The translations under genes were made by a program, and so were the position numbers. Below, one piece after another: positions 9,122 to 28,448 of a stretch of DNA of 36,154 nt (the first letter of the stretch is position 1; every line of letters begins with the position of its first letter). The DNA is from Tolumonas sp. (GTDB taxonomy: Bacteria > Pseudomonadota > Gammaproteobacteria > Enterobacterales > Aeromonadaceae), in assembly GCA_008015085.1 (NCBI GenBank), contig SSEX01000007.1:1-36154 (forward strand), given 5' to 3'. Under the pieces are notes generated by a model. That model saw only the letters and a program-made list of their open reading frames with translations. It was not told the DNA's origin and made no database searches.

Positions 9122-10067
9122 TGTTCTGTTACCGTTCTGTCTGCTCGGGTTAGCCGCCTGCCAGCAGGAGACCACTGCTACCCTGCCCGGTTATGTTGAA
9201 GGCGACTATGTGCGGATTGCCACGCCGGTAGCGGGTTATTTACGAGCACTGGCCGTCACTGAAGGTCAGACCGTCAAAGCCGGTGAACCGTTATTCCGGC
9301 TGGAAAACAGTGAAACCAGTACGAATCAGCAATCGGCCCAGGCCTCGCTGAAAAAAGCGCAGGCGCAGTCCGCCGATCTGAGTAAAGGTAAACGCAGTGA
9401 AGAGATTTCGGCGCTGAATGCACAACTGGATGCGGCACAGGCGGCATTACGCTTAAGTGAACAGGAACTTGCCCGTCAACAACGACTGAGACAGCAGGGT
9501 TTCAGTAATCAGGCTGCTTTAGATCAGGCCGTCAGCACCCGCCTGCAGGCTCAGGGGAAAGTGCGGGATCTGAAAGCCCAGCTGGCGTTAGCTAATCAGG
9601 CTGCCCGCAGCGACTTACAGCTGGCGGCACAGGCTGACATCACCGCTGCAGAAGCCAAGCTGACGCATGCCGATTGGCTGGTCACTCAGGCTTCACCGGT
9701 CAGCCCGGTTAACGCGCGAGTCGAAGAAACCATCTATCAGCAAGGTGAATGGGTGCCTGCCGGATCACCAGTCATTACGTTATTAGCGGCGGATGCAGTC
9801 AAAATCCGTTTTTATATTCCCGAAACACAGTTTGCCGGTATTCATACCGGACAAACCATTTCCGTCAGCTGCGACGGTTGCAACACCACGATTCCTGCTC
9901 GCATCAGCTATATAGCCAGCGAGGCCGAATACACACCTCCGGTCATTTACAGCAAAGAAAACCGCGCCAAACTGGTGTTTATGGCAGAAGCTAAACCTAT
10001 TGATACCGCCAAACTGACATTGCATCCGGGGCAACCGGTAGCCGTTTCGTTAACCCAGACGGAGTGA
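9114..10067 (+). CDS. HlyD/YbhG-like periplasmic adaptor, probable lipoprotein
   Basis: A 317-residue membrane-fusion protein. MRNVLLPFCLLGLAAC ends in a lipobox (LAAC), so it is probably lipid-anchored; the residue after the Cys is Gln, not Asp. A biotinyl-lipoyl-like half motif (GYVEGDYVRIATPVAGYL) is followed by a long Ala/Gln/Glu-rich coiled-coil hairpin (about 70-190) and beta-barrel segments (VNARVEETIYQQGEWVPAGS, VKIRFYIPETQFAGI). Adaptors of this kind bridge an inner-membrane transporter to TolC. Start with GGAGG upstream. It overlaps tetR by 8 bases and the next gene starts 6 bases after its stop. Confidence 0.9.
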   Translation: MRNVLLPFCLLGLAACQQETTATLPGYVEGDYVRIATPVAGYLRALAVTEGQTVKAGEPLFRLENSETSTNQQSAQASLKKAQAQSADLSKGKRSEEISALNAQLDAAQAALRLSEQELARQQRLRQQGFSNQAALDQAVSTRLQAQGKVRDLKAQLALANQAARSDLQLAAQADITAAEAKLTHADWLVTQASPVSPVNARVEETIYQQGEWVPAGSPVITLLAADAVKIRFYIPETQFAGIHTGQTISVSCDGCNTTIPARISYIASEAEYTPPVIYSKENRAKLVFMAEAKPIDTAKLTLHPGQPVAVSLTQTE

Positions 10068-10072
10068 GCGAT

Positions 10073-10999
10073 ATGCAAAGCGAAGGGTGGATCATTGATG
10101 TCGAAGGGCTGAATAAACGTTTCGGCGATAAACTGGTGGTCGATAACCTGAATATGCAAGTGCGGCCTGGCGAGATCTACGGTTTCCTCGGGCCAAACGG
10201 CAGCGGTAAAACGACGTCGATTCGCATGATGTGCGGCCTGCTCACCCCCGACAGCGGTTCTGGTCATACGCTGGGTTATGACATCGTCAGTCAGGCCAGT
10301 GAGATCAAACGCCATGTGGGCTATATGACGCAACGCTTCGGCCTGTATGACGATCTCAGTCTGCGGGAAAATCTCGATTTCATTGCCCGGATCTACGGTA
10401 TGCCAGATCGCCGGCAACGGGTACAACAGGCATTAGAACGACTCGGTTTACAAGGGCGGCAGAATCAGCTGGCCGGAACGTTGTCTGGCGGCTGGAAACA
10501 ACGACTGGCACTGGCTGCCTGTATGCTGCATAACCCCAGACTACTGCTGCTGGATGAACCTACTGCCGGGGTGGATCCGAAAGCCCGCCGCGATTTCTGG
10601 GATGAGATCCACCAGCTGGCTGCCGAAGGCATGACCGTGCTGGTCTCAACTCATTACATGGATGAAGCCGAACGGTGTCACCGTCTGGGCTATATCGCCT
10701 ATGGCAAACTCCTGGCGAACGGCACACCGCAGGAACTGATCCGTCAAAGTCAGTTTTCCACCTGGCTGGTGGAAGGGAATGTCGACTCACTGTTACCTGT
10801 TTTGCAATACCATCCGGCCGTCACCCTGATCACCCGTTTTGGTAGCAGCTTGCATCTTAACGGGCTGGATGCTGCGCAATTAGCTTCTGCGATTGAACCA
10901 TTCCGGCAGCAGCCCGATCTGCACTGGCAATTGATCTCACCGCAGCTGGAAGATGTGTTCATTCATCTGATGCAGCAAAGTCAGGATAATTTTCGCTAG
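10073..10999 (+). CDS. ABC exporter ATPase, YbhF-like with a single nucleotide-binding domain
   Basis: A 308-residue ATPase. Walker A is GPNGSGKTT (40-48), the signature is LSGGWKQRL, Walker B is LLLLDEPTAGVDP, and the H-loop is STHYMDEAERC. A C-terminal ~80-residue accessory domain follows. E. coli YbhF is a tandem two-domain ATPase of about 578 residues; this one has a single domain, so it must dimerise. I prefer ATG 10073 (GGAG 8 bases upstream) over GTG 10064, which overlaps the adaptor stop. It powers the permease encoded 8 bases downstream. Confidence 0.93.
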   Translation: MQSEGWIIDVEGLNKRFGDKLVVDNLNMQVRPGEIYGFLGPNGSGKTTSIRMMCGLLTPDSGSGHTLGYDIVSQASEIKRHVGYMTQRFGLYDDLSLRENLDFIARIYGMPDRRQRVQQALERLGLQGRQNQLAGTLSGGWKQRLALAACMLHNPRLLLLDEPTAGVDPKARRDFWDEIHQLAAEGMTVLVSTHYMDEAERCHRLGYIAYGKLLANGTPQELIRQSQFSTWLVEGNVDSLLPVLQYHPAVTLITRFGSSLHLNGLDAAQLASAIEPFRQQPDLHWQLISPQLEDVFIHLMQQSQDNFR

Positions 11000-15981: not shown

Positions 15982-17427
15982 CTATTTACATTCCCGCTCG
16001 ATGATCGTTTTTACGATATTGCTGGTCGAGCAACCATCTTCAAAATGCAGTACGCGGACTTCACCACCATTGGCGGTCACTTCCGCATAACCGGCAATCT
16101 CTTCCGGCTTATAGTCACCACCTTTCACCAGCAGATCCGGCAGAATGCCGGCAATCACCCGCTGTGGTGTGTCTTCACTGAACGGTACCACCCAGTCGAC
16201 CGAGTCCAGTGCTGACAACACAGCCATGCGTTGATCTTCCGGTACGATCGGGCGTTTTTCGCCTTTCAGGCGACGAACGGACGCATCGGTATTCACCGCC
16301 ACAATAAGACGATCACCGAGTCTACGCGCCGCTTTCAGATAAGAAACATGACCGGCATGCAGAATATCGAAACAGCCGTTGGTCATCACAATCTTCTCAC
16401 CACGGCGACGTGCCGCCAGTACTGCAGTTTTCAGCTCGGCTTCGCTCATGACACCAAATGCCTGCTCCATACTGCTATGCTCATGCAGTGCCTGCGCCAG
16501 CTCCTGCGGGCTGACCGTCGATGTGCCCAGTTTCGCCACGACAACACCCGCAGCGCTGTTGGCAATAGCGCAGGCTTCTTCCAGAGATTTACCTGCAGAT
16601 AATGCCGTTGCCAGCGTACCGACGACCGTATCACCGGCACCAGTCACATCAAACACTTCCCGTGCCTGAGTGCGCAGTGTCAGCACCGCACCGCCGCGGC
16701 GAACCAGCAGCATGCCATTTTCTGATCGGGTCACCAGCAAGGCCTCCAGATCCAGTTCATTCAGCAGATTTTTGGCTTTTTCGATCAGATCGTCTTCGTT
16801 TTTCACTTTGCCAACGATCGTCTCAAATTCCAGCATGTTGGGTTTGATTAAAGTGGCACCACGCTATTTCTCAAAGCTGGTTCCTTTCGGATCAACCAGC
16901 ACCGGCACCTTATGCTTACGCGCCAGCTGAATAATATCCTGCACACAAGTCAATGCCCCTTTGGCATAGTCGGAGAGGATCAACACATCAAAATCAGGCA
17001 GTGCCGCATCAATTTTCGCCAGTAAGGGGGCAGGATCGGCCGTAGAGAATGAGTCTTCAAAATCCAGACGGATCAACTGTTGGTTACCGCTCAGAATACG
17101 CAGTTTGGTAATGGTCGGCAGCTCGCTAACCTTCACCAAATCAAAACTGACTTTATGCTTGTTTAATTTGGCTTCCAGGCTGTCAGCAGCTTCATCTTGT
17201 CCGACAAAACCAATCAGGGTCGTTTTACCACCTAAGGCTGCGACGTTCAGCGAGACGTTCGCGGCACCTCCCGGACGATCTTCATTCTTCTCGACTTTCA
17301 CCACTGGCACCGGCGCCTCCGGCGAAATACGGCGGGTCGGGCCGCTCCAGTAGCGATCCAGCATGATATCGCCCACAACCAGAACACGGGCAGAAGAAAA
17401 ATCAGGTAAGGTGATACGCATCGTCAT
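15982..17427 (-). pseudogene. hldE: hldE (heptose kinase/adenylyltransferase) interrupted by an in-frame amber codon
   Basis: Read through, the frame gives ~480 residues aligned along the whole E. coli Hld[39 protein letters not shown], the kinase GAGD site (DVTGAGDT), and the nucleotidyltransferase [12 protein letters not shown]. Codon 188 (16864-16866) is TAG, where the conserved sequence reads DPKGTxFE-K/R-Tyr-RGATL; the flanking residues FEK and RGATLIKPN are in the same frame. One base change from a Tyr codon explains it. The 187-residue N-terminal product lacks the GAGD catalytic site. The 284-residue distal frame begins at ATG 16836 with no ribosome binding site. HldE makes ADP-heptose for LPS core. 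Confidence 0.85.
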
Positions 17428-21657: not shown

Positions 21658-23565
21658 ATGGCAAACTGGTCCTGTCAGGACGCCCTGAAAATGTATAACG
21701 TCCCTTACTGGGGGGCAGGTTTTTTCCATATTGATGCGCTGGGCCGTGTCGTGGTTACACCGGATAAAACGCGTCTGGATTGCAAGATCCCGTTGATTGA
21801 TATCATCGATCAGTTAAGCAAACAGGGCTATGCCACACCGGTACTGCTGCGCTTCCCAGATATTATCAAAACCCGGATCAACGCCCTGTTCGGCGCTTTC
21901 GAGCAGGCGATCCAGAGTTACGGCTACAAAGGCCGTTACCAGTGCGTTTACCCGATCAAGGTTAACCAGCAGAATCAGGTGATCGAATCAGTTACGCGTG
22001 CATTTGCTGATAAACCGAATCTGGGTCTGGAAGCCGGTTCTAAACCTGAGTTGCTGGCGGTGCTGTCGCATCACCACGATCAAGGTTCCATTATTGTTTG
22101 TAACGGTTATAAAGACCGTGAATACGTTCGCCATGCTTTGCTCGGCTCGCTGCTGGGCCATCACGTTTACATCGTGGTGGAAAAACCATCCGAGCTGGAG
22201 CTGATCCTCGACGAATCAGCCCGCCTGAACATTACTCCGCGCATTGGTGTGCGCGCACGTCTGGCTTCGCAAAGCTCCGGCAAATGGCAGGCCAGCGGTG
22301 GCGAGAAATCCAAATTTGGTCTGAACGCCGCACAGATCCTGCGTCTGGTGGAGCGTCTGCGTGAAGCCGGTAAACTCGATTGCCTGCAACTGGTTCACTT
22401 CCACTTAGGTTCGCAGATCGCCAACATCCGTGATATCCAGGGCGGTATCCGTGAATGTGGCCGCTTCTACGCTGAACTGCGCCATATGGGCGCGAACATC
22501 GAAGTGGTTGACGTTGGTGGTGGTCTGGGCGTCGATTACGAGGGGTCTCGTTCACAAAGCCATTGTTCCGCTAACTACAACCTGCGCGAATACGCTAATA
22601 ACGTGGTATGGGGCATTGGTGATGTCTGCGAACAATACAACTTGCCGCATCCGATGATCATCAGCGAATCTGGCCGTGCGATTACCGCGCATCATGCGGT
22701 GCTGATCTCCAATGTTGTTGGTATGGAAAGCCAGCTGCCAACTTCGCTGCCAGACGCACCGACCAGCGATGCACCACTGCTGCTGCAAAACATGTGGGAC
22801 AGCTGGAAAGAGCTGCACGAAAAGGAAGATCCGGGTCTGCTGGAAATTTTCCATGACTCTGTCTCTGATCTGGCGGACGTACATACCCAATACACGCTCG
22901 GCATCATGTCGCTGCAACAACGCGCCTGGGCGGAAGATCTGCACCTGAATCTGTGTCTGAAACTGAAAGCTATGCTGGATCCGGTAAACCGGATGCACCG
23001 TAACTTGCAGGATGAACTGAACGAGAAACTGGCCGATAAATGTTTCGTCAACTTCTCACTGTTCCAGTCACTGCCAGATGCCTGGGGGATTGATCAGATC
23101 TTCCCAATCATGCCACTGAGCGGTCTGGATCAACAGCCGACCCGCCGCGGTGTAATCATGGATATTACCTGTGATTCCGATGGTACGATCAAAGAGTACG
23201 TGGATGGTGTGGGTATCGAAAATACGCTGCCAATGCCAGAGCTGCGCCACGATGAAACCAGTTATATGGGTTTCTTCCTGGTCGGTGCTTATCAGGAAAT
23301 TCTGGGCGATCTGCACAACCTGTTCGGTGATACACACAGTGCAGAAGTGTGTCTGAACGATGACGGCACCCCGGTGATCACCAATATCATTAAGGGTGAT
23401 AACGTTGATAACCTGCTGCGCTACGTCAATATTGATCCATCGATGATCCGCAGTGCCTATCAGAAACTGGTTGATCACCCGTCGCTGAGTGCGGAAACCC
23501 GTAAAGAGTTGCTGGAAGAGCTGGAAGCCGGTCTGCAGGGCTACGCTTATCTCGAAGACGAATAG
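21658..23565 (+). CDS. speA: Biosynthetic arginine decarboxylase
   Basis: A 635-residue PLP enzyme of the SpeA family. The PLP lysine lies in YPIKVNQQ (Lys101); LGLEAGSKPELLAVL, HFHLGSQIANIRDI and VDVGGGLGVDYEG follow in order, with the C-terminal DAWGIDQIFPIMPL, GFFLVGAYQEILGDLHNLFG and a YLEDE end matching E. coli SpeA. It decarboxylates L-arginine to agmatine, the first step of the agmatine route to putrescine. It is slightly shorter than E. coli SpeA (658) at the N-terminus. GAGG precedes the ATG. No speB is adjacent; the gene ends in TAG before a strong terminator. Confidence 0.96.
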   Translation: MANWSCQDALKMYNVPYWGAGFFHIDALGRVVVTPDKTRLDCKIPLIDIIDQLSKQGYATPVLLRFPDIIKTRINALFGAFEQAIQSYGYKGRYQCVYPIKVNQQNQVIESVTRAFADKPNLGLEAGSKPELLAVLSHHHDQGSIIVCNGYKDREYVRHALLGSLLGHHVYIVVEKPSELELILDESARLNITPRIGVRARLASQSSGKWQASGGEKSKFGLNAAQILRLVERLREAGKLDCLQLVHFHLGSQIANIRDIQGGIRECGRFYAELRHMGANIEVVDVGGGLGVDYEGSRSQSHCSANYNLREYANNVVWGIGDVCEQYNLPHPMIISESGRAITAHHAVLISNVVGMESQLPTSLPDAPTSDAPLLLQNMWDSWKELHEKEDPGLLEIFHDSVSDLADVHTQYTLGIMSLQQRAWAEDLHLNLCLKLKAMLDPVNRMHRNLQDELNEKLADKCFVNFSLFQSLPDAWGIDQIFPIMPLSGLDQQPTRRGVIMDITCDSDGTIKEYVDGVGIENTLPMPELRHDETSYMGFFLVGAYQEILGDLHNLFGDTHSAEVCLNDDGTPVITNIIKGDNVDNLLRYVNIDPSMIRSAYQKLVDHPSLSAETRKELLEELEAGLQGYAYLEDE

Positions 23566-27316: not shown

Positions 27317-27347
27317 TTTCGCCCTTCCTGTAGTGACGGAGTACACC

Positions 27348-28448
27348 ATGACATACGCGGCTCATTCTGATGCCCTTTACCAGCAACAGTTGCATGAAAA
27401 ACAGCAACGCCTGACACAATTGCTGGCTCCTTTTCAGGCTCCGGCACCCGAGGTGTTTGCCTCTGCTCCGACGCATTATCGTATGCGTGCTGAATTTCGC
27501 ATCTGGCATGAAGACGACGACCTGTTTTATGTCATGTTCAACAGCGAAACCAAACAGCGTTACTACGTGGAAGAGTTCCCGACCGGCAGCCTGTTGATCA
27601 ATCAGCTGATGCCACGCCTCAAAGCATTGCTAAAGGCCAACCACGCACTGAAACATAAACTGTTTCAGGTCGATTTTCTGACCACGCTGAGTGGTGAAGC
27701 GCTGATCACACTGCTTTACCATAAACAACTCGCCGAAGCCTGGGAACCGGCAGCCAGAGAACTGCGCGAGACTCTCCGGGCTGAATTTGGCGAAGTCGAT
27801 GTGGTCGGCCGGGCACATAAACAAAAGATCGGGCTGGAACGCGAATATGTACTGGAACAGCTGCAGGTGGCCGATCGCACGCTGGAATATATGCAGGTAG
27901 AAAACAGTTTCACCCAACCTAATGCGGCAATGAACCAGCAGATGCTGGGCTGGGCACTGGATGTGACCACTGGCTGTCAGGGCGATCTGCTGGAACTGTA
28001 TTGCGGCAACGGCAACTTCTCGCTGGCACTGGCCAAAAACTTTAACCGAGTGCTGGCGACCGAAATTGCCAAATCATCAGTACATGCCGCCCAGCATAAT
28101 ATCGCCGTGAATCAGATTGAGAATGTGCAGATCCTGCGCATGTCCGCCGAAGAGTTCACTCAGGCGATGAACGGTGTGCGTGAATTTAACCGCCTCAAAG
28201 GCATCGATCTGCAAAGCTATCAGTGCAATACCATTCTGGTTGATCCACCACGGGCAGGGCTGGATCGGGATACTCTCGCCATGATCCAGGCATATGAGCA
28301 GATCCTCTATATCTCCTGTAATCCGGAAACGCTGTGCGATAACCTGAACACGTTATGTCAGACTCATGAGATCAAACGATGCGCCCTGTTCGATCAGTTT
28401 CCGTTTACACATCATATGGAATCGGGCGTCTGGCTGGTGCGTAAATAG
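27348..28448 (+). CDS. trmA: tRNA (uracil-54-C5)-methyltransferase
   Basis: A 366-residue enzyme, the same length as E. coli TrmA. The N-terminal [20 protein letters not shown] matches TrmA. The SAM site is [23 protein letters not shown] and [11 protein letters not shown] carry the catalytic cysteine, and [12 protein letters not shown] at the C-terminus holds the proposed general-base glutamate. It makes m5U54 in the tRNA T-loop. ATG 27348 has GGAG 6 bases upstream; an upstream GTG at 27333 lacks this. In E. coli trmA and btuB are direct divergent neighbours; here the DUF5610-like gene lies between them. Confidence 0.95.

Follow-up and report, generated by a model that had tools for sequence, protein, structure and literature searches.

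An isolated in-frame TAG in the otherwise intact hldE gene of a partial Tolumonas genome

The question raised by this locus is whether an amber codon in the middle of hldE truncates the product, is decoded, or is absent from the organism itself. The gene lies in the window, the whole stretch of DNA analysed (36,154 nt), which is one entire contig, C125, of the Tolumonas genome G000 (family Aeromonadaceae, an uncultured bacterium). This assembly comprises 1.83 Mb in 172 contigs, is 63% complete and is probably a binned metagenome, judging by its partial completeness and contigs of at least 5 kb. A search for near-matches to plasmids found nothing. The hldE product is the bifunctional heptose-7-phosphate kinase and heptose-1-phosphate adenylyltransferase, and the gene is organised as follows.

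15982-17427, minus strand: hldE frame, ATG at 17427, 481 codons plus a TAG terminator, interrupted at codon 188
16864-17427, minus strand: upstream open part, 187 codons, covering the N-terminal portion of the kinase domain and ending before the GAGD site
16864-16866, minus strand (CTA on the plus strand): in-frame TAG, codon 188; every readable relative has Tyr here
15982-16836, minus strand: downstream open part, 284 codons, with the remainder of the kinase domain plus the complete adenylyltransferase domain
15982-15984, minus strand: TAG terminator of hldE; if it were decoded as an amino acid, about 20 extra residues would precede the next stop

Apart from codon 188 the gene is undamaged, with no further stop and no frameshift. 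When read through, its protein scored 786 bits over residues 3-477 against NF008454, the HldE equivalog family with a curated cut-off of 521, and it also passed the cut-offs of both half-domain families, TIGR02198 and TIGR02199. A single uninterrupted frame for both domains, as a member of NF008454 should have, is prevented by the TAG. The motifs are kept on either side of the stop (GGAAN at residue 53, DPKG at 179, GAGD at 263 and HAGH, of the HxGH type, at 357). The window's gene thus resembles HldE (RfaE) over its full length and across both domains, and as a single-copy ortholog, but differs from it in one in-frame TAG in this assembly. The TIGR02198 match spans residues 8-314, so the stop falls within the kinase fold, and a heptose-7-phosphate kinase structure (PDB 4e84) aligns across the site of residue 188. 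The sequence-only reading had placed the TAG correctly in position, codon number and motif context, and its statement that homologues carry Tyr there was borne out by 103 of 103 readable homologues with TAT or TAC.

Conservation of hldE was compared in ten congener genomes, among them G001, G002, G004 and G007. The gene is single-copy in the congeners and was intact and uninterrupted in nine of the ten, with a protein identity of 88-95%; codon 188 was TAC in all nine. An apparent internal TAA in hldE of genome G027 was rejected, as the TAA is not internal and the gene is intact at 477 codons. G001, which is 95% complete in a 730-contig assembly, had neither hldE nor hldD over the cut-off, yet a heptosyltransferase was present; the two missing genes are probably gaps in that assembly.

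Both halves of hldE are under strong purifying selection. The dN/dS of the window's gene against eight congeners was 0.04-0.05 before the stop and 0.02-0.04 after it, the same as among the congeners. On the branch to G000, the part after the stop gained about 7 changes at codon positions 1 and 2 (0.0115 per site) and about 108 at position 3 (0.369 per site), as estimated from separate trees for each codon-position class. The nearest congeners show the same ratio over this part; the closest of them (L009) has 0.0092 per site at positions 1 and 2 and 0.289 at position 3. Assuming that all of the approximately 7 changes at positions 1 and 2 were neutral, the neutral share of the G000 branch is at most about 7%. 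A pseudogene under relaxed selection was rejected on the grounds of a dN/dS of 0.02-0.05 on both sides and the lack of further damage. Since selection shows no relaxation after the stop, the stop is either young or not real.

With its one-base difference the TAG stands alone in an otherwise intact gene under selection, and its likeliest source, favoured with somewhat better than even confidence, is a wrong base in the consensus. Such a base would have arisen from low coverage, base-calling or mixed strains, and the main population of the organism would then make full-length HldE. This error was ranked somewhat above a recent nonsense mutation because hldE is a core gene, under selection and otherwise perfect, and because the assembly is partial. 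The ranking is a judgement that sequence alone cannot settle, as a real recent mutation would look exactly like a consensus error.

How often such stops occur was surveyed in 60 contigs or contig parts of G000 (716 kb), compared with about 0.88 Mb of G007 and parts of G004 and G002. This covered 169 distinct genes (171 kb), in which no frameshift was seen and no stop other than the hldE TAG interrupted conserved sequence. Other apparent stops were rejected, being upstream of start codons, in shadow frames or at natural C-termini. This counts somewhat against an error, the assembly being not visibly poor. Taken with the 3.6% of substitutions in the window's coding sequence that create stops, one mid-gene stop in 171 kb would fit a substitution error rate of the order of 1e-4 per base, a figure that carries roughly hundredfold uncertainty as it rests on one event and is biased, the window having been picked for its hldE stop. 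No paper on erroneous stop codons in assembled metagenomes turned up in a literature search.

The next candidate, tentatively entertained here as a credible but less favoured reading, is that the sampled strain truly acquired a nonsense mutation, and did so very recently. The kinase would be lost, and the 187-residue product would end inside the ribokinase-type fold, before the GAGD motif at residue 263, whose absence from this product had been noted from the sequence. No ADP-heptose should then be made, leaving a deep-rough, heptose-less LPS that may have been favoured under attack by a phage dependent on the LPS core. The unrelaxed selection is compatible with such a mutation, showing only that the event is young. 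Heptose-less LPS carries a cost outside the laboratory, which speaks against it. The retention of gmhA, which acts earlier in the pathway and was present in G000 over the cut-off, points the same way. A precedent exists in E. coli C, where selection by PhiX174 repeatedly gave hldE mutations, each of them located in the kinase domain, the first of the two (PMC10368449). The Tolumonas stop resembles these mutants in a kinase-domain change and a predicted heptose-less LPS, but differs from them in being known from one assembly alone.

Loss of the wider pathway would also have favoured a recent mutation, and neither hldD nor Glyco_transf_9 (waaC/waaF-type) heptosyltransferases were found in the G000 assembly. 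In G007 and G004, hldD and the heptosyltransferases form one cluster adjoining mal genes. The 40 kb surrounding this cluster in G007, including lamB, malE, malF, malG, malQ and malP, matched G000 only at the level of paralogs or repeats, whereas about 20 kb of the same region is conserved in G004 at 77-89% DNA identity. Because the neighbouring mal cluster is missing too, the hldD-waa gap looks like missing data; pathway loss was rejected in favour of a missing assembly block, and an unassembled block is the simplest reading of the absence. The spread of the gap into the mal cluster is counted against a recent mutation.

Two further sequences stood out in these comparisons. One, a repeat some 130 bases long (L170 10062-10190 in G007), is dispersed, with copies in the G000 contigs C2, C141, C149, C165 and C73. 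It is 82-94% identical between species, folds into a long hairpin with complementary ends and has no Rfam match; in appearance it is a palindromic element of the ERIC or MITE kind. A 208-base stretch is 99% identical between L268 9316-9523, at the end of G000 contig C121, and L169 11589-11796 of G007, whereas hldE of the same two species is only about 80-85% identical in DNA; the stretch is probably the transposase gene end of a mobile element, located at a contig break.

The suggestion that a spare copy compensates for the stop found no support in the assembled 63% of G000, where PfkB, CTP_transf_like and full-length HldE searches detected neither another hldE nor an hldA or hldC. The matches were rejected as spare copies, being PfkB-type kinases of other kinds and unrelated members of the nucleotidyltransferase fold.

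Decoding of a real TAG into full-length HldE, by an amber-suppressing tRNA or by programmed readthrough, is improbable. In its favour, the frame and its selection continue past the stop, and a suppressor could be hidden in the missing 37% of the genome, which includes the tRNA-Tyr genes. However, the assembled G000 tRNAs (genome 63% complete) include none with the anticodon CTA, and the 0.88 Mb of the congener G007 showed none either; two tRNAs truncated at contig ends could be assigned from sequence to Arg and Lys. The stop at codon 188 occurs in no congener, and the RNA around it folds into no unusual structure (z -1.8). The pattern expected of recoding, TAG avoided as a terminator or present within several genes, was not seen: TAG terminates four genes of the window, and no second mid-gene TAG occurred in the 169 compared genes. 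The argument against general recoding already made from speA, trmA and the ABC ATPase gene, whose frames (10064-10999, 21658-23565 and 27333-28448) do end in TAG, stands, and the termination of hldE itself by TAG adds to it. More improbable still is that a natural amber-suppressor tRNA, encoded in the unassembled third, lets a wild Tolumonas lineage live with an amber codon in this core LPS gene.

That the two open parts are made as separate proteins is scarcely credible: the adenylyltransferase domain does lie complete in the downstream part, which has an ATG about ten codons (27 bases) past the stop at which reinitiation would give a product retaining that activity only, but the break lies inside the kinase fold and not at the natural boundary between kinase and transferase, none of the nine congeners carrying hldE has it split in two, and no Shine-Dalgarno-like sequence was seen before the ATG, in agreement with the earlier view that the distal frame lacks a ribosome binding site.

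Of the outcomes that the sequence-only reading had listed unranked, namely a deep-rough phenotype, suppression, a spare copy or a base-calling error, its anti-recoding argument was upheld while neither the spare copy nor the suppressor tRNA was found in the assembled part of the genome, which leaves a consensus error, the preferred explanation, or a recent loss of function. A phenotype should not be inferred from a lone stop in a partial assembly. If the TAG were real, it would add one more natural-strain loss of LPS heptose, a kind of mutation already known.
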